Source: Ornithinimicrobium faecis
GTDB lineage: Bacteria; Actinomycetota; Actinomycetes; Actinomycetales; Dermatophilaceae
Direction: 5' to 3'
DNA: 64,000 nt
Assembly (NCBI RefSeq): GCF_023923225.1
Contig: NZ_CP099489.1
Span: 1,116,001 to 1,180,000, forward strand
In this document: positions 14,509 through 27,860 of the stretch, piece after piece
Layout of the letters: the number at the start of each line of letters is the position of its first letter
Numbering within the stretch: the stretch's first letter is position 1
The notes under the pieces: model-generated
Seen by the model: only the letters and a program-made list of their open reading frames with translations
Told to the model about the DNA's origin: nothing
The model's database searches: none
Translations under genes and position numbers: made by a program

Positions 14509-17190
14509 CTACTTGATCACCCGCACCGTCGCGGTCGACGTCAGTTGCTTCTGCTCTCCATCGTGGATGAAGTTGGCTGACAACGTGAGCTCGACGTCAC
14601 CCTCAGGGACGTTGTTGTCCAGCGCCGCCTTGTCGAACTGGACGACGAGCTTCTTGCCGGCGCCCCGGACGTTTGCTGCCTCGACGGGTGTCTCGGACAG
14701 CGGCGTCTGCAACTGCGCCCCACCGTCGTAGTGGTAGCCGGCCGGCACGTCGAACATCGCCGTCACCGTGCCGTGCACCCCGGTGAACTGACCCGTCCCG
14801 GATCCGAGCCGCAGCGTCGAGGAGGGGAACCGCAGGGCTCCCGGCTGGTCCGTCGGCTCGAGATACACCTCGATCTTGCCGACGGGGCGCGGGTCGGTGC
14901 AGTCGTTGAAGAAGTAGTCCCCGGCCCGGTCGAAGGTGTGCTCGTAGGACTCGCCCGGCTGCAACCGTGGGTTGAACTCTCCCTCGAAGAACTGCGTCGC
15001 GCAGTGCTCCAGCTGGTTCGGGAAGTTCGGGAAGGTCTCGGCGCCCGGGTTCAGGAAGGTCACCGTGGAGCCCACCTCCACCCGCAGGTGGGTGGGGTCC
15101 ATGCCGGCCTGGGATGTGCTGTCCTGCGAGGACGCGGAGTCGGACCGGTCCGAGCGCGCGAGGAGGACGGTGTTGTCCACCTCGGATCCCTCGACGGCAT
15201 CACCCTGGACCGGACGGCGGATGCTGAGCGGAGCAGTGTTCGGACCCTCCTGGCTGCCTGAGGCAGTCGTGTAGTCACCGCCGAGCTTGAAGGCCCACAG
15301 AGAGTCGCCCTGCGTGACGGAGCCGCCGTAGGGGTTGGTGGCTCCCGCAGCCATCACGGCGACATACTGCTCGCCGCCGACCTCGTAGGTGATCGGCGCC
15401 GACGCGATGCCCGAGCCGGTCTGGAACTCCCACAGGACGTCACCGTCGGTGGCGTCCAGTGCGAGCAGCCGACCATCGATCTGGCCGGCGAAGAGGAGAT
15501 CGCTGGCGGTCGTCAGGGGGCCCTGACCGTGTGACATGTCGGTGCCCAGGTGGTTGGTCCACGTCTGCTCGCCGGTTGAGGCGTCGTAGGCGAGGATGCC
15601 GCCGGTCTGGTACTGGCCGATCGCGCGCTGACCGTTTGCGCTGGCGCCGTTCCAGTGGGCGACCGGGTTGGTGCCGTAGGGGAAGTAGACCATGTTGGTG
15701 CTGTGGCTGTAGGACTGGTTCGACCAGTCGCCGCCACCGTTCTGGCTGGTGGTCGACAGGATCGGCAGGTCCCACTGCGGGTCATACATGCAGCCCTGGC
15801 GGTGGTCCTGCCCCTCGGGGTAGGTGAGGAACGGCTCGTCCGCCTTGACATAGCTGTCCGGGTTGAAGACCAGGTTGCCGTCCTCGTCGGGCTGGTAGCC
15901 GTTGTAGTTGGGCACGGCCCGCCACGGGTCGCCCGGGATGTTGTCCGCGTCGAGCTTCTCCCAGACCAGGCACTCGGGGAGCAGCCGCTCCTCGGGGAAC
16001 GGCTGGGTCTCTGAGTGGTGCTGGCGGGAGTCGGTGATCATCTCCTTCTCGATCACGGGGAGCACTGACGTGCCGTTGGTGCGGTCGAGCACGAACTGGT
16101 GGCCCGACTTGGTGCCGTAGAAGAGGACCTTGCGCGTCGCGCCGTCGACCTCGATGTCAGCCAAGGTCGGCGGGTGGACGTTGTCCATGTCCCAGACATC
16201 GTGGCGAATCGACTGGTAGTGCCACTTGTAGTCACCGGTGGTCATGTCCACCGCCACGAGGGTGGTCGAGAACAGGTTGTCGCCCGGCCGATCAGAGCCG
16301 TCCTGGGAGCTGGTGCAGCTGCGGGCGTTGCCGAACGTCATGTAGTACATGCCGAGTTCGGGGTCGACCGAGCCGTGCATCCACGGGGTGGAGCCACCCT
16401 CGAGGGCGCAGTCGGTCCCGTCCGCCAGGATCGGGCCCCACGTGGCACCGGCATCGACGGAGTTGCCGTTGACATCGGTGAAGACCGTCCCGCGGTTGGG
16501 GCCCCCGAAGAAGTGCCAGAGGTGCGAGCCGTCGTCCGCATCGAGGGCGACCACCGCGGCCCGGTCGCCGTTTGCTGCGTGCGCATAGACGATGCCGTCG
16601 TGATAGACCGTTGCGACGCGGTCCACGCGACCGAGGTTCTCGCCATTGGGCCCCTCGACCTGCGCGACCCACGCTTGTTCACCGGTCTCCTGGTCGAGTG
16701 CGACAGCCCGGTTGCCGCTGGCCAGTGTGTAGACCCTGCCGTCGCCGGCGGACACCCCGCGGCGCGTGCCCGACGTGTCGAAGTCTTCCGGCTCCCACTT
16801 CCACTCGGCCTCGCCGGTCTTGCCGTCGACCGCGATCACGCCACCGCTGGGGGTGTCGGTGTAGATGACGCCGTCGATGGCGATCGGTGTCGTCTGCTGC
16901 CCGGTGTCGTCCGAGGCTGGAGCGACCGCTGAGACGTGGGTCTGCCAGGCCGGCCCGAGCTTCTTGAGATTCTGCTGGTTGATCTGGGTCAGACCCGAAT
17001 AGTGCTGATTTCCCAGATTGCCCCCAACGTTGGGCATATCTGCTGTTGTCGGTTCCACGGCCGACACTGCGTCGGGTGGGGCGTTTTCGGGGGGAGCTCC
17101 GAGGCCCGTGGCGGGGTAGGTGGCCAGCGAGAGCGCCAACACCGTCCCGAACACCACCGTCGTCTGCCTCTTGGTCAGAGGTATGCGCAT
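14509..17190 (-). CDS. Secreted PQQ-type quinoprotein dehydrogenase with fused cupredoxin-like domain
   Basis: The 893-aa protein starts at ATG 17190 (AAGGAG 10 nt upstream) with a signal peptide ending near TGLGAP. The body is an eight-bladed-type PQQ propeller with W-motif repeats such as GEAEWKWEP, GEQAWVAQV, GSHLWHFFG and GDVLWEFQTG. HDVWDMDNVHPP matches the catalytic-Asp WDxD segment of quinoprotein alcohol dehydrogenases. No vicinal Cys-Cys and no haem c motif (CxxCH) are seen. The C-terminal ~220 residues include a cupredoxin-like unit (VEVGSTVTFLNPG to DYFFNDCTDPRPVGKIEVY) with a Cys but without the usual following His and Met. It would oxidise an alcohol or polyol outside the cell; the substrate and electron acceptor are unknown. 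No pqq genes are in the window. Confidence 0.82.
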   Translation of the reverse strand: MRIPLTKRQTTVVFGTVLALSLATYPATGLGAPPENAPPDAVSAVEPTTADMPNVGGNLGNQHYSGLTQINQQNLKKLGPAWQTHVSAVAPASDDTGQQTTPIAIDGVIYTDTPSGGVIAVDGKTGEAEWKWEPEDFDTSGTRRGVSAGDGRVYTLASGNRAVALDQETGEQAWVAQVEGPNGENLGRVDRVATVYHDGIVYAHAANGDRAAVVALDADDGSHLWHFFGGPNRGTVFTDVNGNSVDAGATWGPILADGTDCALEGGSTPWMHGSVDPELGMYYMTFGNARSCTSSQDGSDRPGDNLFSTTLVAVDMTTGDYKWHYQSIRHDVWDMDNVHPPTLADIEVDGATRKVLFYGTKSGHQFVLDRTNGTSVLPVIEKEMITDSRQHHSETQPFPEERLLPECLVWEKLDADNIPGDPWRAVPNYNGYQPDEDGNLVFNPDSYVKADEPFLTYPEGQDHRQGCMYDPQWDLPILSTTSQNGGGDWSNQSYSHSTNMVYFPYGTNPVAHWNGASANGQRAIGQYQTGGILAYDASTGEQTWTNHLGTDMSHGQGPLTTASDLLFAGQIDGRLLALDATDGDVLWEFQTGSGIASAPITYEVGGEQYVAVMAAGATNPYGGSVTQGDSLWAFKLGGDYTTASGSQEGPNTAPLSIRRPVQGDAVEGSEVDNTVLLARSDRSDSASSQDSTSQAGMDPTHLRVEVGSTVTFLNPGAETFPNFPNQLEHCATQFFEGEFNPRLQPGESYEHTFDRAGDYFFNDCTDPRPVGKIEVYLEPTDQPGALRFPSSTLRLGSGTGQFTGVHGTVTAMFDVPAGYHYDGGAQLQTPLSETPVEAANVRGAGKKLVVQFDKAALDNNVPEGDVELTLSANFIHDGEQKQLTSTATVRVIK

Positions 17191-17266
17191 TGCCGATATC
17201 TCCTTGGTTGGAACGACGGGCAGACGTTCGCCCGTCTCGCCCACGAGCCCGCAGGCGCGCAATCGG

Positions 17267-17285
17267 TGGTCCACCTAATGGACCA
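17267..17285. promoter_or_regulatory. Operator-like palindrome, site A (probable IclR-family site)
   Basis: TGGTCCACCTAATGGACCA is an exact inverted repeat (7-bp arms, 5-nt centre). It lies 76 nt upstream of the PQQ-dehydrogenase start. Related sequences occur at 17413 and 21519, beside the other genes of the island. Confidence 0.65.
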
Positions 17286-17412
17286 ATGGAACCGACTGAT
17301 GGTTTGCCACCGTAACGGTGAGCCGGCTCGCTGGCAACCCCTTCAGTGGCGCAGGGCCTCTTGTCTCGACGCTCACCCCCTGTTACGGTTTCGGTCCATC
17401 GAGTGGCCTACA

Positions 17413-17431
17413 TGGTCCACCTAGTGGAATT
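17413..17431. promoter_or_regulatory. Operator-like sequence, site B
   Basis: TGGTCCACCTAGTGGAATT matches site A in its first 10 positions and in the TGGA of the second arm. It ends 11 nt before the ThuA-protein start, where a bound repressor would block initiation. Confidence 0.6.
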
Positions 17432-17442
17432 GAGGAATGGGC

Positions 17443-18426
17443 ATGAAACTGAAATCGCTCAGCATTCCGGCCGTTGTGGCCACCCTGATTCTCGGCGCGA
17501 GCGGCGGCGCTGTGCTGACGGGAAACAACGGGAATGGCAACGGCAATGGCAATGGAAACGGCGGTCCGAATGGCGTCAAGGCCGCCATCTACACCGATGG
17601 CATCAGCGACTACGGTGTCGAGCGCGGCACAGATGCGAGCCTCTACAACGACTGGGGCAATGGTTGGAGCGAGGGCGAGACACCAAGCGTCCTGATCTAC
17701 AGCCACACTCCGGGTCCGCGGCACGCCCACCTCGGGGATCGCCTCGACCCCGGGTTGAATCCGCCCCTGAACGAGTCCAACGTCGCCCAGGCGAACCTCA
17801 AGGAATGGCTTGAGGCCGAGGGCGTCGAGGTGAGTTGGACCGAGGATGTCGGCCAACTGTCCCGGCTCGGTGGTTACAACGGGGTGATCGCACTCAGCGC
17901 CAACCGCGATGCCTATGACGACGCGGCGCAGAACTCACTGAAAAAGTTTGTGCGTGGTGGTGGCGGCTTTGTCGGCATCCATAATGCCTTCGGTGCCGAA
18001 TACAACTGGCCGTGGTACGAGGGTCTGCTGGGTGGCGCGAACTTCTACGATCACGGCCCCAACCGCGAGGGCACCGTCGAGACGGTGAACCGCAAGGACG
18101 TCTCCACCGAGAACCTTCCCCGCGAGTGGGGATACAAGGACGAGTGGTACAACCTGGTTCCCTTCCCCAGCTATGTCAACGTCCTCGCCAAGGTTGACGC
18201 GGAGACCAGCGACCCAGGGCGGGACTCCGGCCACCCGGGTCACGGTGACAATCACCCGGTCAGCTGGTGCCACTACTACGACGGTGGCAAGTCCTGGCTC
18301 ACCACGTTGGGACACGATGTGAACACCTGGACCGACGCGGAGTTCGAGGGCAGCGAGTACTTTAAGGACCACGTGGTCAACGGCACCCTGAGCGCCATCG
18401 GTGTGAAGTCGTTCTGCCAGTCCTGA
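17443..18426 (+). CDS. Secreted ThuA-domain protein
   Basis: The 327-aa protein has an N-terminal signal peptide (MKLKSLSIPAVVATLILGAS), a short Asn-Gly tract (NGNGNGNGNG), then a ThuA-like glutamine-amidotransferase-fold domain. Visible features are VLIYSHTPGPRHAH, the strand GVIALSANRDAYDD and FVRGGGGFVGIHNAFG. ThuA proteins take part in trehalose and other sugar catabolism, often beside sugar oxidoreductases, but their chemistry is poorly defined. ATG 17443 has GAGGAA 8 nt upstream; ATG 17437 is also in frame. It is divergent from the PQQ dehydrogenase, with operator-like sites at both promoters, which suggests they act together outside the cell. Confidence 0.8.
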   Translation: MKLKSLSIPAVVATLILGASGGAVLTGNNGNGNGNGNGNGGPNGVKAAIYTDGISDYGVERGTDASLYNDWGNGWSEGETPSVLIYSHTPGPRHAHLGDRLDPGLNPPLNESNVAQANLKEWLEAEGVEVSWTEDVGQLSRLGGYNGVIALSANRDAYDDAAQNSLKKFVRGGGGFVGIHNAFGAEYNWPWYEGLLGGANFYDHGPNREGTVETVNRKDVSTENLPREWGYKDEWYNLVPFPSYVNVLAKVDAETSDPGRDSGHPGHGDNHPVSWCHYYDGGKSWLTTLGHDVNTWTDAEFEGSEYFKDHVVNGTLSAIGVKSFCQS

Positions 18427-18443
18427 TCACCGCCAGAAGGCCT

Positions 18444-18478
18444 GGGCGGGGCCCTGCGATCACCGCAGGGCCCCGCCC
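18444..18478. terminator. Bidirectional terminator
   Basis: A 15-bp perfect stem (18444-18458 with 18464-18478) lies between the ThuA gene and the convergent lyase gene. A 15-bp direct repeat containing CAGCTCGGTC follows at about 18525-18554. Confidence 0.7.
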
Positions 18479-18556
18479 ATCGGTCTGTCGGGGGCCGCAC
18501 GCTCTGTCAGACGGCCGCCCAGTCAGGGACAGCTCGGTCAGGGGCAGCTCGGTCTG

Positions 18557-19366
18557 TCAGGAGGCGGGGCCGGTGTAGGTCGGCAGGATGCTCGGCGGGA
18601 TGGGCCCCTTGATGCGGCCGCCCTGCTGGGTCTGCTCCCAGGCGTGGGCCAGGATGCCAGCAGACCGGCCGAGCACGAACAGGCCCCGGGCGAGCTCCGG
18701 GGGGACGCCGAGCTCGCCATAGATCATCGCGGTGACCCCATCGACATTGATGGGCACCGGCGTGGTGCGGCCCTCGTTGAGAATGCTCTCGACCGCCAGT
18801 CCGGCGTCCACGTGCAGGCCACGGATGTCGTTTGTGCTGCGCGCCTCCCGCAGCAACTCCAGGATCGGCTCCCGTCGTGGGTCCACAGGGTGGAACCGGT
18901 GCCCGAATCCGGGCAGATAGCGGGAGCGTGCCTGCCACCGCTGCACCACAGACCTGGTCACGGCCAGGAGGTCCTCGCCGGACCCCTCGTGCTCCTCGAC
19001 GATCTCGTTGAGCAGCTCCACGCACTGCTGACCGGCTCCTCCGTGCACGTCGCCAAGCACATTGATGCCGTTGGCGACGGCACTGTTCAGGCCCACACCG
19101 CAGGTCGCGGCCATCCGTGCCGAGGCGATGGAGGGCGCCTGTGGGCCGTGGTCCACCGAAGCGACCAGTGCCGCCTCGAGCAACCGGTGCTGTCCCGGGG
19201 TGGGGAAGGTGCCGGAGACAAGCATCCAGACGACCTCGGTGAAGCTGTGCTCCCGCAGCAGGTCTCCGATGGGGTTGCCGCGCAACGAGATGCTGCCGGG
19301 CGCGATGTTGCTGATGTCTGTTGCCCACCACCCGGCGACCGCGCCGGTGGGGTCGACCTCGTTCAC
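18557..19366 (-). CDS. Citryl-CoA lyase / citrate synthase-like protein
   Basis: The 269-aa protein has the citrate synthase fold of stand-alone citryl-CoA lyases and the C-terminal ATP-citrate-lyase domain. Visible features include the active-site-like DVHGGAGQQC and YLPGFGHRFHPVDPR segments and a C-terminal GPIPPSILPTYTGP. The reaction is probably aldol/Claisen cleavage of an acyl-CoA such as citryl-CoA or a related 3-hydroxy dicarboxyl-CoA. GTG 19366 overlaps the CoA-transferase stop (GTGA), so the two proteins are translationally coupled and probably act in sequence, activation then cleavage. The exact substrate is unknown. Confidence 0.78.
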   Translation of the reverse strand: MNEVDPTGAVAGWWATDISNIAPGSISLRGNPIGDLLREHSFTEVVWMLVSGTFPTPGQHRLLEAALVASVDHGPQAPSIASARMAATCGVGLNSAVANGINVLGDVHGGAGQQCVELLNEIVEEHEGSGEDLLAVTRSVVQRWQARSRYLPGFGHRFHPVDPRREPILELLREARSTNDIRGLHVDAGLAVESILNEGRTTPVPINVDGVTAMIYGELGVPPELARGLFVLGRSAGILAHAWEQTQQGGRIKGPIPPSILPTYTGPAS

Positions 19367-20589
19367 TGGACCTGCTCCGAGGTCTTCAGGGTGCGGTCTG
19401 GGTCGGTCGGTGGGTTGACGGTCGCGGAGCCGCTCCACTCGAGGAGGGCGTCGTTGTGTTCGCCCAGGATGGGCGGTGCGGACCGGGGTCCCAGGCTCTC
19501 CCCGTCGAACAGGACGCCATTGCTCATCACGGTGAGCACTCGATCGGGGTGCCCCGGGAAGTCGAGGTCGTGCAGGAAGTCACGCACGGCCAGCTGTGGC
19601 AGGGACAGGGCGCCGGGGACGGAGAGGATCCGTGCTGCCGGGACGCCGATCCCGTTGAGGGTCTCCTCCCACTCCGCAGCTGTCCGGGCGGCCAGTCCGG
19701 CGTTCACGGCAGCGTTGAGCGCGACGCGGTTTTCCTTGCGGGCCTCGCGCTCGGTGAACCGGGGGTCCTCCACCAGCTCGGGCTGGCCAATCGCCTCACA
19801 CAGGGACACGAATTGTTGCTGCTGGTTGGCGGAGATGTTGAGTGGACCGTCGGCGGCGTCGAACGTGCCGGACGGTGCGGCGGTGAAGTTCTGGTTGCCC
19901 AGCGGGCTGGGCTCGATCCCGGCGCCGAGGAAGTTGCTCACGGCCCACCCCATGGTCGACAGCGAGGCCTCCAGCATGGAGACGTCCAGCGTGGCACCGA
20001 CCCGGTTGCCATCGGCGTCCCGGGGGGCCAGGGAGGCGCAGATGGCGAGGGCCGCCATCATGCCGCCCACGGAGTCAGCGATCGGGAAGCCGACCCGCAG
20101 GGGGGCGGTCTCGGTCGTGCCGGTGATGCTCATGATGCCGGAGAGGCCCTGGATGATCTGGTCGTAGGCCGGCCGCTGGCTGAGCGGGCCGTCCTGCCCA
20201 AAGCCGGAGACAGCGCAATACACGAGGCTCGGGTTCCTGGCCCGCAGTTCGTCGGCCCCCAGGCCCAGGCGAGACATCACCCCGGGCCGGAAGTTCTCGA
20301 CCACGACATCGGAGCGCGCGACCAGGCCCAGGAACACTGACTTGTCGTCCGGGTCCTTCAGGTTCAGCTCCACCGATTTCTTGCCGGCGTTCTGCGCGAG
20401 AAACGACACGCCGAGGCCCTGCCCGTTCAGCGTGGCATCGGCCCCCAGGGATCTGGCCAGGTCGCCGCTGCCGGGCTGCTCCACCTTGATGACCTCGGCC
20501 CCCAGCAGGGCGAGGTGATAGGTGCAATAGGGTCCGGCGAGGACGTTGGTCAGGTCGAGGACACGTATGCCGTCAAGTGGGCGAGCCAT
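19363..20589 (-). CDS. CaiB/BaiF family III CoA-transferase
   Basis: The 408-aa enzyme is a family III CoA-transferase, which moves CoA between carboxylic acids through an enzyme-bound aspartyl anhydride. The N-terminus LDGIRVLDLTNVLAGPYCTYHLALLG is diagnostic (quoted in parts: LDGIRVLDLTNVLAGP and YCTYHLALLG). SVELNLKDPDD follows, and the likely catalytic Asp lies near VVVENFRPGVMSRLG/CAVSGFGQDGPL. ATG 20589 has GGAGGT 9 nt upstream. It lies 51 nt after the IclR gene and is coupled to the lyase gene, so all three probably form one operon. Confidence 0.9.
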   Translation of the reverse strand: MARPLDGIRVLDLTNVLAGPYCTYHLALLGAEVIKVEQPGSGDLARSLGADATLNGQGLGVSFLAQNAGKKSVELNLKDPDDKSVFLGLVARSDVVVENFRPGVMSRLGLGADELRARNPSLVYCAVSGFGQDGPLSQRPAYDQIIQGLSGIMSITGTTETAPLRVGFPIADSVGGMMAALAICASLAPRDADGNRVGATLDVSMLEASLSTMGWAVSNFLGAGIEPSPLGNQNFTAAPSGTFDAADGPLNISANQQQQFVSLCEAIGQPELVEDPRFTEREARKENRVALNAAVNAGLAARTAAEWEETLNGIGVPAARILSVPGALSLPQLAVRDFLHDLDFPGHPDRVLTVMSNGVLFDGESLGPRSAPPILGEHNDALLEWSGSATVNPPTDPDRTLKTSEQVQ

Positions 20590-20640
20590 GAGCGATGGAC
20601 CTCCGAGGTGGTCGGGTGGGACGAGGGGGCAGGCGGCGGG

Positions 20641-21447
20641 TCAGGTGTTCGCGCGCAGGGGGTGATCGATCCCGAGCTTGCTCATCGCCTCGGCCGCGTC
20701 AGCAAGCGTGCTGGCCAGTCCGGGGACCCGGTCGTCGGTGAACCGCACGGTGGGTCCGCTGAAGGTCAGCGCGGCCACCACCTGACCGTGAGCGGACCGG
20801 ACCGGGGCGCCCACCGCAGACAGTCCCTGCTCGCGCTCCCCGTGGCTCACCGCAAAGCCGAGCGTGCGGACCTGCTCGATGTCGGCCAACAGGCTCTCCA
20901 GGGTCGGCGCGCCGGGGTGCGCCTCGGCATACAGGCTCTCCACGATGCTCGGGTCCGACTGGCTGAGCAGGATCTTGGAGGAGGCACCCGAGGTGAGGGG
21001 CAGCTGGTCGCCGATGCGCACTACGTGCCGCAGCGGCAGGGGGCTCTCTTCCTGCGCCACGCAGATGCGGGTGCGTCCGCGCCGGATATACAGATTGACC
21101 GTCTCCTGCTCGGCCGCGACAAGTTCCTTCATCACCTCGCGTGCCTGCGGGGGCAGCTCCCAGGCCTGGTTGGCTGCGAAGGCCCAGCGCCACAAGCCCG
21201 GGCCGGGGACGTATCCCCTGCTGGTCGAGGCCAGCAGGCCCTCGGTCTCCAGCGTGAAGAGCAATCGGAGCACTGTCGTCTTGGCCAGCCCGCTGGCCTC
21301 CACGATCTCGGAGATGCTCCGCGGCCGGTTCGAGCCGTTGGTGAACTGGCCCATGATGTCCAGGGCGCGCGTGACGCTGCGCACGGTCTGGTGACTCGCG
21401 CTCTGGTCGACCTCCAGGTCGACCACGTGGTCTGGGTTCTCGCTCAT
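20641..21447 (-). CDS. IclR-family transcriptional regulator
   Basis: The 268-aa protein has an N-terminal winged helix (about 18-75, SISEIVEASGLAKTTVLRLLF) and a C-terminal IclR effector domain (VRIGDQLPLTSGASSKILLS, GYAVSHGEREQG-like segment). It is the only regulator in the island and is divergent from the aldehyde dehydrogenase gene. Operator-like repeats lie in the intergenic gap, so it probably controls both directions and the PQQ/ThuA pair as well. The effector is unknown. Confidence 0.9.
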   Translation of the reverse strand: MSENPDHVVDLEVDQSASHQTVRSVTRALDIMGQFTNGSNRPRSISEIVEASGLAKTTVLRLLFTLETEGLLASTSRGYVPGPGLWRWAFAANQAWELPPQAREVMKELVAAEQETVNLYIRRGRTRICVAQEESPLPLRHVVRIGDQLPLTSGASSKILLSQSDPSIVESLYAEAHPGAPTLESLLADIEQVRTLGFAVSHGEREQGLSAVGAPVRSAHGQVVAALTFSGPTVRFTDDRVPGLASTLADAAEAMSKLGIDHPLRANT

Positions 21448-21509
21448 CGGATCAATTCACCCCTTGCGGTTTTGGCTGACGCTGGATACGTTAACATCAG
21501 TCCACACAA

Positions 21510-21537
21510 TGGTCCAGATGATCCGCCTAGTGGTTTG
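21510..21537. promoter_or_regulatory. Operator-like sequences, site C, in the IclR/ALDH divergent promoter
   Basis: A half-site TGGTCCA (21510-21516) precedes TGATCCGCCTAGTGGTTTG (21519-21537). The latter aligns with sites A and B around the shared core TCC-CCTA-TGG. It ends 10 nt before the aldehyde dehydrogenase ATG. Confidence 0.6.
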
Positions 21538-21547
21538 AGAGGGTTCG

Positions 21548-23071
21548 ATGGTCGTTCTAACCGAGACCGGGGAGCGCACAGAGCAGGAGCCGTTCCTGGT
21601 GCGCTGCTTCGTGCGTGGCAACTGGCAGGACACAGCGCAGACGGCTGAGCGCCACGGCCCGTATCACCGGCGCGTGGTGACGGTCACGTCGCAGGCAGAT
21701 GCGGCTCTGGTGGACGAGGCGGTGGACGCAGCAACAGCCGGTCGCTCTGCCGTGGCCACCATGTCGCCCTCGGACCGGGCTGATGTCCTGGAGCGGGCCG
21801 CTGACCTGACCGACGAGCGGTCCGAGCAGATCGCCGAGCGCCTCGCGCTCGAGCTCGGCAAGCCGGTGCGCGACGGCCGCGGTGAGGCCCTGCGGGTCGC
21901 CGCAACCTTCCGCATCGCGGCTGCAGAGACCCGGCGGCTCGGCGGCAGCGTGCTCCCGGTCGAGGGATGGCCGCTGGGGCGCGGCAGCACCGTCCTGACC
22001 CGCAGCACGCCGGTCGGCGTCGTCCTGGCGATCACGCCATTCAACGCACCCGCAAACCTGTTGGCGCACAAGCTCGCTGCGTCTTTCGCGGCCGGCAACT
22101 CGACGATCATCAAGTCGCCGCCCCAGGCGCCGGCGTCCACCGCCATCGTGGTCGAGATCGCACTGGATGCCGGCGTGCCACCCGAGGCTCTGCAGTTGTT
22201 GCACGGCGGCGCCGACATCGGTGCCCAGCTGTGCGAGGCGCCGGGCATCGGTGCGGTGGCCTTCACCGGGTCGGCGGCAGCGGGAGCGGCCGTGGCCCGG
22301 GCGGCCGGGCCCAAGCGCACCGTGCTGGAGCTCGGGGGCAACGCCGCCACCATCGTCCACGTCGACGCCGACGTCGCCCAGGCGGCGGCTGCCTGTGCGC
22401 GCACCGGCTACAGCAACTCAGGGCAGTCCTGCATCTCGGTCCAACGCGTCTATGTGCACCGTTCCAGGTTCGACGAGTTCGTGGCGGCGTTCACCGAGCA
22501 CGTCAATGCCCTCGTGGTCGGCGACCCGTTGGATCCAGCCACCGAGGTCGGCTCCATGGTGGATGACGATGCGGCAGTCCGCGTCGCGAGCTGGGTGCAG
22601 GAGGCACAGACCGAGGGTGGGACCGTGCCGACCGGGGGAGTGCGGACCAACGCCACCGTCACACCGGCCGTCGTCCTCGACCCTCCCGCGAGTGCCAAGG
22701 TTGTCCGTGAGGAGATCTTCGGCCCGGCCGTCGTCGTGCTCGGCTATGACGACCTGGACGCCGTCGTCCAGGAGTGCAACGAGAGCCGCTATGGCTTGCA
22801 GGCCGGACTGTTCACGCACGATGTGGGCACCGTCTTTGACCTGTGGCGTCGCCTCGAGGTCGGTGCACTGGTGATCAACGGCCCGTCCAACCACCGCCTC
22901 GACCACATCCCCTTCGGCGGGGTCAAGGACTCGGGGATCGGCCGTGAGTCGCCCGCCTTCATGATCGAGGACTTCATGACGACCTCGACTCTGCACCTGC
23001 GTGGCATCAGCCTCTGGAGCGAGTCCGCGTCCAGCGCCACCCCACACCGCAACGAGCAGGAGACCTCATGA
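21548..23071 (+). CDS. NAD(P)-dependent aldehyde dehydrogenase
   Basis: The 507-aa enzyme is of the ALDH superfamily. The catalytic Cys lies in GQSCISVQRV, the general-base Glu in LELGGNA, the coenzyme motif is VAFTGSAAAG, and ITPFNAPANL and SPPQAP are also conserved. The CISVQRV subgroup includes lactaldehyde-, phosphonoacetaldehyde- and sulphoacetaldehyde-type dehydrogenases. It overlaps the next gene by 4 nt (ATGA), so the product of the TPP enzyme is a natural candidate substrate. The start at ATG 21548 has GAGAGGG upstream. Confidence 0.9.
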   Translation: MVVLTETGERTEQEPFLVRCFVRGNWQDTAQTAERHGPYHRRVVTVTSQADAALVDEAVDAATAGRSAVATMSPSDRADVLERAADLTDERSEQIAERLALELGKPVRDGRGEALRVAATFRIAAAETRRLGGSVLPVEGWPLGRGSTVLTRSTPVGVVLAITPFNAPANLLAHKLAASFAAGNSTIIKSPPQAPASTAIVVEIALDAGVPPEALQLLHGGADIGAQLCEAPGIGAVAFTGSAAAGAAVARAAGPKRTVLELGGNAATIVHVDADVAQAAAACARTGYSNSGQSCISVQRVYVHRSRFDEFVAAFTEHVNALVVGDPLDPATEVGSMVDDDAAVRVASWVQEAQTEGGTVPTGGVRTNATVTPAVVLDPPASAKVVREEIFGPAVVVLGYDDLDAVVQECNESRYGLQAGLFTHDVGTVFDLWRRLEVGALVINGPSNHRLDHIPFGGVKDSGIGRESPAFMIEDFMTTSTLHLRGISLWSESASSATPHRNEQETS

Positions 23072-24864
23072 CCGTCGACGTCAGTTCCAACAGCCCGACG
23101 ACGGAGGCGACGAACGCTCCGAACACACCGGGCACGGGAACGACCGGGGCGCACCTGCTGGTGCGGCAGCTCGAGGACTATGGCGTGGAGTTCATCTTCG
23201 GACTCTGCGGCCACACCAACATCGCCTTCCTCGACGCCCTCGCCGAGAGCTCCATCGACTTCATCACCTTCCGGCACGAGCAGACGGCCGCGCACGCGGC
23301 CGACGGCTATGCCCGCGAGTCGGGCAAGCCCGGGGTCGTGCTGACCCACGTCGGGCCCGGCATGATGAACGCCGTGACCGGGGTGGCCAGCGCGGCCATG
23401 GATTCGGTGCCGCTCGTGGTGATCAGCGGTGACATTCCTTCCTACTATCTCGGTCGGCACCCGCACCAGGAGGTCAACCTCCACAACGACGGCGATCAGA
23501 GCGCGATCTACCGCCCCTTCGTGAAACGTGCCTGGACCGTTCACCGCGTCGAGGACCTCTCCCGATTCGTCGAGCGTGCCTTCTGGACCTCCACCACCGG
23601 GCGCCCGGGTGCCACGCTGGTGAGCGTCCCGATGGACATGTTCTCCCGGGAGGTGGCTGGCGACGTCCCCGCACTGCCTCCACCGCCGCCCGCGCAGGCC
23701 GTCCCGGAAGGGGTGGGTCGTCGCATCGCAGAGAACCTGGCCGCAGCAACCAACCCCGTCCTCTACATCGGTGGTGGGGTCAACTCAGCCGACGGCAGAG
23801 GCGCAGTGCTGTCGGTGGCTGAGCACCTCGACATACCGATCATCCACTCCCTCATGGCCAAGGGCGCCATCGCCGACAGCCACCCGCTGGTGGCCGGTAT
23901 GCCCGGGTTCTGGGGTGCGGAGCTGACCAACCAGCTCACCCGTGATGCGGACCTGGTCCTCGCCGTCGGCACCCGGTTCGCCGAGACCGACGCGAGCTCG
24001 TGGGACGGTGAGTCGACCTGGTCCTTCCCGCCGAGCCGACTGATCCAGATCGACCTCGACCCGGCCGAGATCGGGCGCAACTATCCCGTCGAGCTCGGGG
24101 TGGTGGCCGACGCGACGCAGACGCTCGCAGCCGTGGCGGCCGCCCTGACCGACGTCGCTCCCGACGGACGCGACCGTCCCGAGCTGCGGGCGCAGATCGC
24201 TGACAGCCGGGCCGAGGTGTTCTCCCGGATCACCAGTGCGGCTGACTCCGACCAGATGCCGTTGCGACCCCAGCGCATCCTGGCCGACCTGCGGGCTGCG
24301 GTCCCGGCCAACACGGTCCTGGTCACCGACGTCGGGTGGAACAAGAACGGCATCGCACAGTGCTATGAGTTGCCCGCGGAGGGACGTTTCATCACGCCGG
24401 GCGGCTCCTCCACGATGGGGTTCGGACCGGCTGCGGCCCTCGGCGTGCAGGTTGCGTCTCCGGACCGGCCGGTGGTTGCCCTGATCGGTGACGGCGGTCT
24501 GAGTGCACAGCTGGCGGCCCTGCCGACAGCGGCCGAGCGCGCCCTGCCGGTGATCTTCGTCGTGATGAACAACGCCTCCCACGGGACGATCTCGGATCTG
24601 CAGAGCTCGAGCTACGGCCGCAGCTATGGGTGCGATTTCCGTGACCGGGAGGGTCAGCCCTACTCACCCGACTTCGCAGCCCTGGGCATCTCCTGCGGGC
24701 TGGATGGCTATCGCGTCGAACAACCGGAGGACCTGCAGAAGCACCTAGAGAGCGCCCTGAAGAACCGCCGTCCGGCCGTGATCGACGTGCCGATGGTGAA
24801 CGAGCCGGTCCCCACCCCGGGGCACTGGAACATCAAGGACATCTACCGAGGCGACTTCGCCTGA
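23068..24864 (+). CDS. Thiamine diphosphate-dependent enzyme, acetolactate synthase/2-oxoacid decarboxylase family
   Basis: The 598-aa protein has the three-domain layout of the POX/AHAS family: an N-terminal Pyr domain with catalytic Glu in FRHEQTAAHAADGYAR, a central domain, and a C-terminal PP domain with the metal/ThDP motif GDGGLSAQL...NN. The first ~25 residues are Thr/Asn-rich and likely disordered. Members decarboxylate 2-oxoacids or ligate them, and this one cannot be assigned. Coupling to an aldehyde dehydrogenase suggests decarboxylation of a 2-oxoacid to an aldehyde that is then oxidised. A weak hairpin (about 24875-24896) separates it from the TRAP genes. Confidence 0.85.
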   Translation: MTVDVSSNSPTTEATNAPNTPGTGTTGAHLLVRQLEDYGVEFIFGLCGHTNIAFLDALAESSIDFITFRHEQTAAHAADGYARESGKPGVVLTHVGPGMMNAVTGVASAAMDSVPLVVISGDIPSYYLGRHPHQEVNLHNDGDQSAIYRPFVKRAWTVHRVEDLSRFVERAFWTSTTGRPGATLVSVPMDMFSREVAGDVPALPPPPPAQAVPEGVGRRIAENLAAATNPVLYIGGGVNSADGRGAVLSVAEHLDIPIIHSLMAKGAIADSHPLVAGMPGFWGAELTNQLTRDADLVLAVGTRFAETDASSWDGESTWSFPPSRLIQIDLDPAEIGRNYPVELGVVADATQTLAAVAAALTDVAPDGRDRPELRAQIADSRAEVFSRITSAADSDQMPLRPQRILADLRAAVPANTVLVTDVGWNKNGIAQCYELPAEGRFITPGGSSTMGFGPAAALGVQVASPDRPVVALIGDGGLSAQLAALPTAAERALPVIFVVMNNASHGTISDLQSSSYGRSYGCDFRDREGQPYSPDFAALGISCGLDGYRVEQPEDLQKHLESALKNRRPAVIDVPMVNEPVPTPGHWNIKDIYRGDFA

Positions 24865-24925
24865 ACCGCAGGGGGCGGGCTGACCTCAGCCCCGCCACCG
24901 ACCCACCCCACAAGGAGTGATCACA

Positions 24926-25963
24926 ATGAAGTGTTCCACGCACCTGCGCGGCATTGCCGGGCTCAGCATCGTGGCGCTGGCCCTGACGGCATGCTCGGGC
25001 GACAGCGAAGCCGGCGAGACATCCGGCGAGGCAGGAGGCGACGGAGGTGGCGGGGAGACCGTCACCCTGTCGCTCGCGCACAGTTATGCAACCAACCACC
25101 CGCACCAGACGTGCGGCGCCGAGCTCGTCAAGGAGCAGGTCGAGGGCGCCGACGTCGGCCTGGAGATCGAGATCTTCCCGGACAGCACCCTCGGGGGTCA
25201 CGCCGAGAGGTTCGCGTCCGTGGTCTCCGGCGACATCGACATTGACATCCAGGGGCCGTCCGAGATCTCCGCGACGTTCGAGCCGGTGGGTGTGCTCGAC
25301 GCGGCCTACGCCTTCGACGACGCGGACCACCTGTTCAGCTTCTTCGAGTCCGATGCGGGTGTTGAGCTGGGTGAGCAGATCATCGAGGGCAGCGGAGCGC
25401 GGATCCTCGCCCCGTGGTATTTCGGCATGCGGCACTTCACGTCGAACACGCCGCTCAACACCCCGGAAGACTTCGACGGCCTGCGGATGCGGTTCCCCGA
25501 CACCCCACAGTTCCTGCAGAACGCCGAGGCGCTCGGTGCATCCCCGACCTCCGTCGCGTTCGAGGAGGTCTACATCTCCCTGCAGCAGGGAGTCGTCGAT
25601 GGTCAGGAGAACCCGATCCCCACGATCGACTCGCTGGCCCTGCCCGAAGTCCAGTCCCACCTCAACCTCACCGGCCACATGGTTGGCATCCACATGATCG
25701 TGATGAACGAGGAGAAGTGGCAGTCCCTGGACGGTGACCAGCAGGAGACCCTGCAGTCCGTCTTCCAGGAGGTCCGCGACACCAACCGCGGCTGCATCGA
25801 GGACGCAGAGAACGAGCTGGTCGAGCAGTGGGAGGCCGAGGGCACGATGGAGATCGTCGAGCCGGACGTCGAGGCCTTCCGGACCAAGGCCGAGGAGTTC
25901 TTCACCAGTGAGCTCGACGGCGAGAAGCTCGAGCTCTACCAGACGATCCGCGACCAGGCCTGA
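24926..25963 (+). CDS. dctP: TRAP transporter solute-binding lipoprotein, DctP family
   Basis: The 345-aa protein begins with a lipoprotein signal (ALTACSGD) and a Gly/Glu-rich linker. It continues as a DctP-type TRAP receptor, with the conserved Arg region DGLRMRFPDTPQFLQNAEALG that binds a substrate carboxylate and VYISLQQGVVDGQENP. ATG 24926 follows AAGGAG (24912-24917). The TRAP system is Na+/H+-driven and usually imports organic acids, which fits the enzymes upstream. A strong hairpin after this gene would allow more receptor than permease. Confidence 0.92.
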   Translation: MKCSTHLRGIAGLSIVALALTACSGDSEAGETSGEAGGDGGGGETVTLSLAHSYATNHPHQTCGAELVKEQVEGADVGLEIEIFPDSTLGGHAERFASVVSGDIDIDIQGPSEISATFEPVGVLDAAYAFDDADHLFSFFESDAGVELGEQIIEGSGARILAPWYFGMRHFTSNTPLNTPEDFDGLRMRFPDTPQFLQNAEALGASPTSVAFEEVYISLQQGVVDGQENPIPTIDSLALPEVQSHLNLTGHMVGIHMIVMNEEKWQSLDGDQQETLQSVFQEVRDTNRGCIEDAENELVEQWEAEGTMEIVEPDVEAFRTKAEEFFTSELDGEKLELYQTIRDQA

Positions 25964-25968
25964 CCACT

Positions 25969-26011
25969 CTCCCGCCGCGGGAGGGTCCCTGAGACCCTCC
26001 TGCGGCGGGAG
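25969..26011 (+). terminator. Attenuating terminator between dctP and dctQ
   Basis: The arms 25969-25987 and 25993-26011 pair at 18 of 19 positions with loop CCTGA, followed by CGAGTTTG. It probably reduces readthrough into the permease genes. Confidence 0.65.
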
Positions 26012-26049
26012 CGAGTTTGCCCCCGACACTCAACCGTGAGGAGCGATGA

Positions 26050-26595
26050 ATGACCGCACCTACCCCTACGGCTTCCGGCGCGCGCACCCTGCCGCGCAGG
26101 TTGGTCCGCGTCCTTGACCTCGCAGAGCAGACCGTCGGTGCCATCTGCCTCGGTGTGATCCTGGTGCTGGTCTCGATCCAGGTCGTCCAGCGGGTCACCA
26201 CGGGGGGCAGTTGGGTGTGGTCAGGGGAGTTTGCCAAGTACGCCATGGTCTGGTTGACCTTCATCCTGGCCGCCCATCTGCTGCGCACCGACGGGCACCT
26301 CAAGGTCGACGTCATCGAGCAGTGGTTGACACCCCGGGGCGAGCGCATCATGACCCGGATCACTGACGGCCTCATCGCCGTCTCCTGCTGGGGGCTCGTG
26401 TGGGCAGGGTGGGGCCTGCTCACGGCACCCTTCCTGGGCTCGGCGCCAGCTTCCGGCGTGCCCCTGGTGATCGTGTATGCCGGGCCGGTGGTCGGGCTGG
26501 TCCTGATCGCACTCACAGCCACCTGGTTCGCCATCGTCGGGCGCTCGCCAGAGGATCAGTCCGATGAACAGCAGCTTCCAGAAGGAGTTCTCTAG
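26050..26595 (+). CDS. dctQ: TRAP transporter small permease, DctQ family
   Basis: The 181-aa protein has four predicted membrane helices, for example AICLGVILVLVSIQVVQRV and the C-terminal GLVLIALTATWFAIVG, and the family segment GEFAKYAMVWLTFILAAHLLRTDGHLKVD (quoted in parts: GEFAKYAMVWLTF and LRTDGHLKVD). It is the small membrane subunit that pairs with DctM. The ATG has GAGGAG upstream, and it lies 2 nt from dctM. Confidence 0.92.
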   Translation: MTAPTPTASGARTLPRRLVRVLDLAEQTVGAICLGVILVLVSIQVVQRVTTGGSWVWSGEFAKYAMVWLTFILAAHLLRTDGHLKVDVIEQWLTPRGERIMTRITDGLIAVSCWGLVWAGWGLLTAPFLGSAPASGVPLVIVYAGPVVGLVLIALTATWFAIVGRSPEDQSDEQQLPEGVL

Positions 26596-26597
26596 AG

Positions 26598-27860
26598 ATG
26601 GCCATGATCCTTCTCGCGGTGGCCGTGGTGGTCCTGCTGTTGCTCCGGGTGCCGGTTGCCTTCGCGATCCTCGGACCCTCCGTGGTCTATCTCGTGACGA
26701 CCGGGTCCTCCCTGGAGCTCGGTCTGCGCACGGCGATCAACGGCGTGGACAGCTGGCCCCTGTTGGCCGTCCCGCTCTTCGTCCTGCTCGGCGTGATCGC
26801 CAACCACGCCGGCATCGCGGACCGGCTCTTTGACTTTGCACTGGCTCTGCTCGGCCGGGTGCGCGGCGGACTGGCCTACGTCAACATCGGTTCCAGTGTC
26901 GGGTTCTCCTGGATGAGTGGCTCGGCCCTGGCGGACGCGGCCGGACTCGGCTCGGTCCAGGTTCCAGCGATGCAGAGGGAGGGCTACCCAGCACGGTTCG
27001 CAGTGGGGCTCACCGGCGCCTCGAGCCTCATCTCGCCCGTCATGCCACCGAGCATTCCCGCGGTCGTCTTCGCGTCGGTCGCGGGTGTCTCCACCGGGGC
27101 CCTGTTTGCGGCGTCGGTCCTGCCCGCTTTCCTCATCGCTCTCGGTCTGGTGATCTACGTCTGGTTCTGGGCGCGTCGCCAGACCTTCCTGAAGACCCAG
27201 GCCTTCCGCTGGCAGGTCGTGCTCGCGACCGGCAAGCGAGCCGTGGCCGGTCTGCTGACACCGGTCCTGGTCATCGGCGGCATCCTGGGTGGCTTCTTCA
27301 CGCCGACTGAGGCGGCTGCTGCTGGCTGTGTCTACATGTTGGTCCTCGGGTTCGGCTATCGCACGCTCAGGGTCCGTGACCTAGCGCCGGTGCTGCGCAA
27401 CGCGGCCGTGACCTCGGCAGCCATCATGGTGATCATCGGAGCCACCTCCCTGCTCGGATGGATCCTGGCCAAGGAGCAGGTCCCGAGTGCGATCGCCCAG
27501 TGGATGACCGGGCTCACGGACAGTCCGACGGTCTTCCTGCTCCTGGCGGTGGGCCTGCTGATCGTGCTCGGCGCGATCATGGAGCCGACGTCGGCCCTGG
27601 TGCTGAGCGTTCCCATCCTGTTGCCGGTCGCCAAGACCTTCGGGATCGACCCCATCCACTTTGGCGTGATCGTGGTCCTCACGCTGATGATCGGTCTGCT
27701 GACACCGCCAGTGGGTCCGGTCGCCTTCGTGCTGAGCTCGGTCACCAAGATCCCCGTGCGTGAGGTGTTCCGGGGGTTGCTCCCCTTCATGGTGCCACTG
27801 GTCAGCGTCGTGATCCTGCTGGTGTTCTTCCCCGGCCTGATCTGGACTCCTGAGTTGTAG
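26598..27860 (+). CDS. dctM: TRAP transporter large permease, DctM family
   Basis: The 420-aa integral membrane protein is the transport subunit of the TRAP system, with about twelve helices. Conserved features are AVPLFVLLGVIANHAGIADRLF-type text near residue 55 (PLFVLLGVIANHAGI), SSVGFSWMSGSALADAAGLG, MPPSIPAVVFA and a C-terminal GLLTPPVGPV. AAGGAG lies about 10 nt before the ATG, inside the dctQ end. It closes the ALDH-TPP-TRAP operon. Confidence 0.94.
   Translation: MAMILLAVAVVVLLLLRVPVAFAILGPSVVYLVTTGSSLELGLRTAINGVDSWPLLAVPLFVLLGVIANHAGIADRLFDFALALLGRVRGGLAYVNIGSSVGFSWMSGSALADAAGLGSVQVPAMQREGYPARFAVGLTGASSLISPVMPPSIPAVVFASVAGVSTGALFAASVLPAFLIALGLVIYVWFWARRQTFLKTQAFRWQVVLATGKRAVAGLLTPVLVIGGILGGFFTPTEAAAAGCVYMLVLGFGYRTLRVRDLAPVLRNAAVTSAAIMVIIGATSLLGWILAKEQVPSAIAQWMTGLTDSPTVFLLLAVGLLIVLGAIMEPTSALVLSVPILLPVAKTFGIDPIHFGVIVVLTLMIGLLTPPVGPVAFVLSSVTKIPVREVFRGLLPFMVPLVSVVILLVFFPGLIWTPEL

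Follow-up and report, generated by a model that had tools for sequence, protein, structure and literature searches.

A 64,000-nucleotide stretch of the Ornithinimicrobium faecis contig NZ_CP099489.1 (positions 1116001–1180000; referred to here as the window) belongs to a single-contig genome of 4.62 Mb (G000). Between 14509 and 27860, it carries an island of ten genes encoding a secreted pyrroloquinoline quinone (PQQ) dehydrogenase, a secreted ThuA-domain protein, a citryl-CoA-lyase-like protein (CitL), a class III CoA-transferase (CaiB), an IclR-family regulator, an aldehyde dehydrogenase (ALDH), a thiamine diphosphate (TPP)-dependent enzyme, and a complete tripartite ATP-independent periplasmic (TRAP) transporter (DctP, DctQ, and DctM) (Table 1). 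An initial annotation of the window had listed the same ten genes, and all are confirmed at their places. Here, we describe how the island is conserved and regulated, and we discuss the possibility that it opens the ring of a hydroaromatic acid, perhaps quinate.

Table 1. Genes and candidate operators of the island, in window coordinates.
Feature	Position	Strand	Matches and motifs
Secreted quinoprotein (PQQ) dehydrogenase	14509..17190	-	PF01011 263 bits; TIGR03075 (PQQ alcohol dehydrogenase) 270 bits, below cut-off of 480; HDVWDMD signature
Operator upstream of PQQ dehydrogenase gene	17267..17285		Perfect inverted repeat TGGTCCA-N5-TGGACCA; 16.9 bits, matrix rank 2 in window
Weaker second operator copy just 5' of ThuA gene	17413..17431		7.1 bits, matrix rank 12
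Secreted ThuA-domain protein	17437..18426	+	PF06283 151 bits; no NCBIfam match
CitL, citryl-CoA-lyase-like, citrate synthase fold	18557..19366	-	NF004864 382 bits, passes cut-off of 261; HGGA, GHR, NVDG motifs as in 6hxp
CaiB, class III CoA-transferase	19363..20589	-	PF02515 388 bits, gathering score 23.3; 7/7 NCBIfam matches below cut-off
IclR-family regulator	20641..21447	-	PF09339 and PF01614; BhcR 126 bits, below cut-off of 350
Operator 1, IclR/ALDH divergent promoter	21498..21516		21.2 bits, top score of window
Operator 2, IclR/ALDH divergent promoter	21519..21537		15.6 bits, third in window
ALDH, non-acylating type, proposed semialdehyde dehydrogenase	21548..23071	+	PF00171 449 bits; best 25 of 45 NCBIfam matches all below cut-off
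TPP enzyme, GHT motif, proposed cyclic 1,2-dione hydrolase	23068..24864	+	Three TPP Pfam domains; best 25 of 55 NCBIfam matches all below cut-off
TRAP solute-binding lipoprotein DctP	24917..25963	+	TIGR00787 188 bits, passes cut-off of 175
TRAP small permease DctQ	26050..26595	+	PF04290
TRAP large permease DctM	26598..27860	+	TIGR00786 367 bits, passes cut-off of 268

Gene calls rest on profile matches to Pfam and NCBIfam with curated cut-offs. Because the PQQ dehydrogenase, CaiB, ALDH, and the TPP enzyme all score below the curated NCBIfam cut-offs (among the matches listed), their automatic names say little. The open reading frame (ORF) of the PQQ dehydrogenase opens at 17274, but the ATG at 17190 is the likelier start; by our reading, a signal-peptide-like stretch follows it. 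The probable start codon of CitL is a GTG near 19366 that meets the CaiB stop codon; its longest ORF opens at 19438. Relatives of DctP in the PDB include sialic-acid binders.

Comparison with other genomes indicates that the genes of the island are conserved together. We examined the best 80 of 379 CitL relatives from named genomes, scoring gene presence by tblastn with thresholds of our own setting; the TPP gene is present in 37 of these loci and absent from the other 43, and some loci are short contigs. Since the loci were picked by CitL and related species are non-independent, p-values for the presence counts serve only as a guide. Of the TPP loci, 32 span 17 kb or more, and every one of these has the CaiB, IclR, and ALDH genes beside CitL. 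ALDH is found in 36 of the 37 TPP-positive loci but in only 3 of the 43 TPP-negative ones, and several partners are confined to the TPP-positive set: the PQQ dehydrogenase (22/37 versus 0/43), a ThuA relative (21/37 versus 0/43), and Liv-type ATP-binding cassette (ABC) transporter genes (29/37 versus 0/43). TRAP genes are rare (2/37 versus 0/43). The initial annotation proposed uptake by TRAP; the genes for it are indeed in the window, but TRAP is one transporter type among several. The tricarboxylate transporter TctA has the opposite distribution (0/37 versus 24/43), and its position beside CitL and CaiB in loci without the TPP gene is what would be expected if these two proteins act on a hydroxytricarboxylate.

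Samples drawn without CitL point the same way. Across 396 actinobacterial genomes, the TPP enzyme (E-values up to 1e-120, best 3 candidates per genome scored) and CitL (E-values up to 1e-50, best 6 candidates scored) occur in the same three genomes, i.e., G000, G196, and G378. The TPP protein matched 68 plasmid records, and the three with >50% identity (H1–H3, corresponding to loci L116, L117, and L112) all carry CitL and CaiB. The closest named relative found through CitL, Ornithinimicrobium sp. F0845 (L031), has the same ten genes, encoding proteins 73 to 90% identical to those of the window. The TPP gene is present in 2 of 31 genomes of the genus, a distribution suggestive of acquisition by transfer. 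In the open-licence PubMed Central (PMC) literature, we found no paper combining quinate and citryl-CoA lyase and, among the papers listed, no ring-opening quinate pathway. We consider the cluster genuine and conserved, a catabolic unit with shared operators that appears not to have been described. The initial annotation had treated the genes as one unit and suggested a neighborhood search in other genomes; co-occurrence there is strong.

The initial annotation also noted operator-like sequences common to the two secreted-protein genes and the IclR and ALDH operons. A 19-base consensus drawn from the site at 17267 itself matches two window positions (17267 and 17413) with up to three mismatches, as compared with 0.00 matches in 100 shuffles. 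A position matrix was built from 36 IclR/ALDH intergenic regions of related loci, 31 of which have a conserved AACGTA block; sites beside the block were taken from 30 and symmetrised. Training excluded the window and L031, making the matrix less circular than the consensus. Its three highest-scoring sites in the 64-kb window all lie within the cluster, upholding the earlier observation, and the best site beyond the cluster scores 12.1 bits; against a shared operator, the copy at 17413 ranks only twelfth. We scanned ten loci with the matrix. Sites of 14–21 bits lie before the PQQ dehydrogenase or ThuA gene, positions absent from the training set, in L031, L076, L032, L036, L047, L049, L060, and L077. 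One locus (L033) has no PQQ dehydrogenase, and in another (L150, from G378), the PQQ dehydrogenase has no operator before it, such that of the nine scanned loci with this gene, eight share the operator. The three promoters of the island probably answer to IclR through a single operator, to which the protein is predicted to bind. A genome-wide regulon based on the bare palindrome TGGTCCACNNNGTGGACCA was rejected in favor of the matrix: the palindrome is unenriched, with 144 occurrences per strand versus 223 for the reversed control, which looks like a local regulon.

Shared operators bear on whether the island is one unit or two. ThuA proteins and PQQ-type sugar dehydrogenases are often partners, and the PQQ dehydrogenase is absent from 15 of the 37 TPP loci in the stretch examined. 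The two secreted proteins could therefore serve extracellular sugar or alcohol oxidation, leaving the IclR-CaiB-CitL and ALDH-TPP genes to an unrelated acid. We regard such a division as quite improbable, given that operators are shared in the window and in most scanned loci, that neither secreted protein is found in a TPP-negative locus, and that IclR, CaiB, CitL, PQQ dehydrogenase, ThuA, and PqqBCE genes form a co-directional row in L075 and L077. PQQ supply genes are not limited to these two loci; PqqC and PqqE are present in 9 of the 37 TPP loci and PqqB in 8. The first dehydrogenase varies across the TPP loci, with a PQQ dehydrogenase in 22, a zinc-dependent dehydrogenase in 6, both in 1, and neither in 10, as would be expected if each enzyme makes the same ketone. 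The zinc-dependent gene lies between ALDH and the TPP gene in L033, L058, L082, and L086, none of which has a PQQ dehydrogenase. Its product belongs to a threonine-dehydrogenase-like group; scyllo-inosose 3-dehydrogenase is a match of 109 to 120 bits (cut-off 450) and not the best one.

The PQQ dehydrogenase has a further feature of interest. The motif HDxWDxD, with an Asp two residues after the catalytic Asp, is what we take to be the motif of lanthanide-dependent quinoproteins. It is present in 25 of 26 PQQ dehydrogenase ORF rows (one row being the window's own fragment, and L049 being missed by the pattern), including relatives such as L031, L076, L032, L036, and L117; it is also readable in L150 and is the same in 6zcw. 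The enzyme is thus possibly lanthanide-dependent. At about 890 amino acids, it has a C-terminal extension (about 14512–15270) with no Pfam match, which to us looks cupredoxin-like, though apparently without all of the copper ligands. ThuA accompanies the PQQ dehydrogenase; the two PQQ loci seen without ThuA (L049 and L150) have a gene resembling the dehydratase QuiC, although two cases are too few to build on.

The pivotal enzyme is the TPP-dependent one. Its named homologues are called acetolactate synthase, acetohydroxyacid synthase, or TPP-binding protein, and its fold is common to all TPP decarboxylases. We aligned (MAFFT) 43 family rows (two being the window protein itself, with L031 and L143 probably one genome), cyclohexane-1,2-dione hydrolase (CDH, 2pgn), 7 IolD proteins that pass the curated cut-off, and a comparison set of 14 TPP enzymes of other types. 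His49 of the window enzyme aligns with CDH His28, and His occupies this position in 43/43 family rows and 7/7 IolD proteins but in 0/14 other TPP enzymes, which have Gly (12), Asp (1), or Ser (1). All but one of the 120 best homologues (119; P0100 falls outside the pattern) show the motif [F/V]-G-x-C-G-H-[T/S]-N, and the His is kept in each of six distant homologues (34 to 37% identity) taken from the 68 plasmid records. Passages of PMC3534367 state that standard position 28 affects decarboxylase activity in pyruvate decarboxylase and benzaldehyde lyase; we take CDH His28 to be this position. In PMC12247030, CDH carrying both the H28A and N484A substitutions is described as coupling pyruvate with ketones. 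Because the His is common to CDH and IolD and absent from the other 14 enzymes, the TPP enzyme is likely to open a ring, by carbon-carbon hydrolysis of a cyclic 1,2-dione, rather than to decarboxylate.

The initial annotation had instead proposed TPP-dependent decarboxylation of a 2-oxoacid. The imported acid could be, e.g., 4-carboxy-4-hydroxy-2-oxoadipate from aromatic ring cleavage, in which case ALDH would make citrate or a homologue for CaiB and CitL to split. The enzyme does sit in the decarboxylase/acetolactate-synthase superfamily, and the later steps would keep the same order. Moreover, an RraA/LigK-like gene is present in 12 of the 43 TPP-negative loci, and other CitL/CaiB pairs lie near an acetolactate-synthase-family gene and a succinate-semialdehyde dehydrogenase (SSADH) gene (M. 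nodulans) or near aromatic-type genes (Diaphorobacter). However, an RraA-like gene is found in none of the 37 TPP loci, CitL should be unnecessary for plain citrate, and the His shared with CDH and IolD is missing from all 14 comparison enzymes. On this evidence, decarboxylation is unsupported, and we rate it as rather unlikely. As a separate observation, ten CitL loci without the TPP gene carry RraA/LigK-like together with 2-hydroxyacid-dehydrogenase-like genes (L042, L045, L046, L048, L052, L057, L072, L081, L090, and L108), which possibly act on the 2-oxoacid product.

More distant homologues with the Gly-His (GH) motif occur in other settings. In M. nodulans, the row comprises ALDH, the TPP enzyme, Liv ABC genes, and a sugar-isomerase-like TIM barrel; the Neorhizobium row has a hypothetical protein in the position of the barrel. 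In Rhizobium Q54, the TPP homologue accompanies ALDH, a TIM barrel, and an FAD enzyme of the ketosteroid/4-oxocyclohexanecarboxylate dehydrogenase group (below those cut-offs), and in Haladaptatus, it accompanies an annotated scyllo-inosose 3-dehydrogenase. We read these rows as probable members of a wider set of ring-opening modules. On two plasmids, of Rhizobium CIAT894 (L156) and Arthrobacter StoSoilB3 (L157), GH-motif TPP enzymes adjoin HisD-like dehydrogenases, cases that such a reading does not explain and that we take as further uncharacterized modules; the latter also adjoins an annotated chloro-dihydroxycyclohexadiene-carboxylate dehydrogenase.

The order of the late steps is suggested by gene replacement in G378. 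A 19.9-kb locus (L150) groups a TPP enzyme (51% identity) and an adjacent QuiC-like gene with CitL (56%), the PQQ dehydrogenase (75%), and a TRAP transporter; CaiB and the window-type ALDH were not found within these 19.9 kb. The gene immediately 5' of CitL, in the same orientation, encodes an aldehyde dehydrogenase whose best matches are the CoA-acylating families SauS (445 bits, below the cut-off of 600), AdhE, and acetylating acetaldehyde dehydrogenase. One acylating-type enzyme thus replaces ALDH and CaiB, suggesting that an aldehyde is the direct precursor of CitL's acyl-CoA. On plasmids of Azospirillum and Agrobacterium (L113, L114, and L115), IclR, ALDH, CitL, CaiB, and FAD oxidoreductase genes form a row with no annotated TPP gene in the stretch, again grouping ALDH with CaiB and CitL; we read these rows as a further CitL/CaiB pathway. 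The same enzymes could also run in reverse, a scheme that is chemically complete on paper, with CaiB and CitL first releasing a 2-oxoacid that is then decarboxylated by the TPP enzyme and oxidized by ALDH; given the replacement in G378 and the plasmid rows, we consider this highly improbable. By contrast, it is very likely that aldehyde oxidation is followed by CoA activation and carbon-carbon cleavage, as the initial annotation proposed. Its overall reading therefore survives in part, with one unit, shared operators, and the late order retained and 2-oxoacid decarboxylation given up. Near these genes, we also noted a TcuA-like FAD enzyme in L113 (Azospirillum oryzae; 353 bits, cut-off 369), Liv ABC genes in the Azospirillum row, aconitase near the Agrobacterium larrymoorei row, and, adjoining the G378 cluster, an ornithine-cyclodeaminase-family gene (L150, 4960–5943) with a GntR-like regulator beside it.

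What CitL splits can be narrowed from its catalytic motifs. As these are the ones of citryl-CoA lyase, the substrate should be a 3-hydroxy-3-carboxy-acyl-CoA. We reason that drawing such a unit from a ring requires a tertiary hydroxy-carboxylate, and the common rings that bear one are quinate and dehydroquinate. The reading we prefer, tentatively and at a little under even confidence, is that the genes of the island break down, by ring opening, a hydroaromatic acid with a tertiary alpha-hydroxy-carboxylate, most likely quinate.

In the proposed pathway, the extracellular PQQ dehydrogenase would convert quinate to 3-dehydroquinate, and the TRAP transporter would take up the keto acid. A cyclic 1,2-dione would then arise by dehydration, through a QuiC-like TIM barrel in some relatives and perhaps ThuA in the window, or by a second oxidation. 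QuiC-type dehydratases act on a 3-keto-4,5-diol, eliminating water by loss of the H at C4 and the OH at C5; on dehydroquinate, such a step would yield the 3,4-dione, as IolE does on inosose. The TPP enzyme would hydrolyze the bond between the carbonyls, as does IolD, leaving a carboxylate and, on the C2–C3 (CH2) arm beside the tertiary carbinol, an aldehyde. Oxidation of this aldehyde by ALDH would yield homocitrate (4-hydroxyhomocitrate if there is no dehydration) as the hydroxytricarboxylate, CaiB would form the CoA thioester (homocitryl-CoA or hydroxyhomocitryl-CoA), and a retro-Claisen split by CitL would give acetyl-CoA and 2-oxoglutarate (4-hydroxy-2-oxoglutarate if there is no dehydration). 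That quinate and shikimate are broken down in this full, non-aromatic sequence, via dehydroquinate, the cyclic 1,2-dione, and cleavage of homocitryl-CoA or its 4-hydroxy form, is possible, and we hold it somewhat more cautiously than the general ring-opening proposal.

The initial annotation did not propose a specific substrate. The choice of quinate draws on a statistical link to quinate/shikimate-type genes seen in the comparison of loci. QuiC-like genes are present in 9 of the 37 TPP loci and none of the 43 others, AroE-like genes in 7/37 versus 0/43, and shikimate-transporter-like major facilitator superfamily (MFS) genes in 5/37 versus 1/43, with at least one of the three in 12/37 versus 1/43. 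An example AroE passes the shikimate dehydrogenase subfamily cut-off. In Azoarcus KH32C, a co-directional row comprises genes for a 4-hydroxyphenylpyruvate-dioxygenase (HPPD)-like protein, a QuiC-like barrel, CaiB, CitL, the TPP enzyme, shikimate dehydrogenase, and aroD; aroD is above its cut-off, while the HPPD-like, QuiC-like, and annotated shikimate dehydrogenase proteins are below the NCBIfam cut-offs. From these neighborhoods and the chemistry of CitL, we judge quinate about evenly balanced as the substrate. The same logic could instead apply to another alicyclic compound bearing, or converted to, a tertiary hydroxy-carboxylate, the quinate-type genes being ecological neighbors. No quinate/shikimate-type gene was found in the stretch examined for 25 of the 37 TPP loci, which counts against quinate and for such a compound, as do the TPP relatives with the same His that adjoin the ketosteroid-group FAD enzyme, the annotated scyllo-inosose 3-dehydrogenase, or HisD-like genes. 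We consider this unlikely, though not markedly so, because shikimate dehydrogenase and aroD lie directly behind the TPP gene in Azoarcus and QuiC-like genes are near nine TPP loci, adjacent in G378. As a side observation, an AroK-AroB-like fusion (shikimate kinase/dehydroquinate synthase, below cut-offs) is found near CitL in L034, L039, L050, L058, L069, L082, and L086, mostly acidimicrobial or unclassified actinomycete metagenome-assembled genomes; it may be linked to the pathway or may be a housekeeping neighbor.

Several further observations weigh against a ring-opening pathway for quinate. The weakest point of the scheme is the missing dehydratase: no IolE- or QuiC-like gene is found in the window cluster, and the genome's best QuiC match is 26 bits against a cut-off of 1200, although the QuiC model exceeds its cut-off in none of 14 control genomes and may have missed a divergent dehydratase. 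The QuiC-like proteins of related loci score 543, 457, 156, and 131 bits, far below this cut-off, and the example MFS protein is below the shikimate-transporter cut-off. The QuiC- and AroE-like genes may just serve a neighboring route to protocatechuate. ThuA has no assigned reaction in the scheme, and no ALDH is annotated near the Azoarcus row, for which the list of genes is perhaps incomplete. The PqqC model gave no match in G000, G018, or the L031, L076, and L032 genomes, nor in 14 standard control genomes, while it did match the genome of L077; the window organism probably relies on an external supply of PQQ, likely from other microbes.

The enzymes themselves supply other such points. CDH His31, His76, and Asn484 are replaced by Ile, Val/Leu, and Ile in the TPP family (with one gap at the last column). 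The window enzyme scores 215 bits with the IolD profile TIGR04377, not passing the cut-off of 715, and whole-protein IolD scores do not separate it from acetolactate-synthase-like enzymes. It is the genome's best IolD match, but we dropped this as evidence, as acetolactate-synthase-like enzymes of 38 genomes score about equally. With the score non-discriminating and other CDH residues lost, our claim concerns working like CDH or IolD, not family membership. A search for an active-site difference between TPP-linked (42 rows) and Tct-linked (24 rows) CitL proteins gave none that was convincing, which we read as the same product class in both. Lastly, CitL and CaiB occur in rows of differing chemistry: with a divalent anion:sodium symporter (DASS) and lactonase-like amidohydrolases in M. 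nodulans (L164), where the acetolactate-synthase-family enzyme and SSADH lie further on, and with fumarylacetoacetate hydrolase, FAD monooxygenase, cupin, and VOC genes in Diaphorobacter (L166); in Roseibium (L165), CitL adjoins alcohol dehydrogenase and SSADH genes. The pair is best seen as a reusable end module, whose presence alone names no substrate. The L164 TPP enzyme was rejected as a member of the window family (838 bits versus an acetolactate synthase cut-off of 509, and no GH motif).

The proposed pathway resembles known systems in part. In the myo-inositol (Iol) pathway, IolG, IolE, and IolD act as dehydrogenase, producer of a cyclic 1,2-dione, and TPP-dependent ring opener, followed by the IolB, IolC, and IolJ steps. 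The island would follow the same step logic, and its TPP enzyme shares a G-H-x-N motif with IolD, but ALDH, CoA-transferase, and lyase take the place of IolB-C-J, and there is no IolE in the cluster. CDH uses cyclohexane-1,2-dione, and semialdehyde oxidation comes next; the window enzyme keeps the His28 of the Azoarcus protein, along with the catalytic Glu and Gln116 that are common to other TPP enzymes, but is only 26% identical and lacks the other residues named above. The classical hydroaromatic pathway (QuiABC/QsuABCD) ends in protocatechuate. It has in common with the neighboring or related loci a PQQ-type dehydrogenase and AroE-, AroD-, and QuiC-like genes, whereas no QuiC is above cut-off in the window genome, and the TPP enzyme, CaiB, and CitL are foreign to the classical route. 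CitL shares its fold and catalytic motifs with the citryl-CoA lyase 6hxp, which is coupled to citryl-CoA synthetase in the reductive tricarboxylic acid cycle; the island CitL instead goes with a class III CoA-transferase and the proposed ring-cleavage genes.

Plants contain the acids quinate and shikimate in abundance, and as far as we know, the described aerobic route for their breakdown passes through protocatechuate. If the proposal is correct, an alicyclic ring would be taken straight to acetyl-CoA and 2-oxoglutarate, bypassing aromatic ring cleavage and oxygenases. It would also explain why Gram-positive bacteria secrete a quinoprotein, one that possibly depends on lanthanides, and give a substrate class to an orphan family of citryl-CoA lyases. 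Lastly, it would provide a function for a TPP family often named acetolactate synthase, the whole of which would then be ring-cleaving hydrolases.

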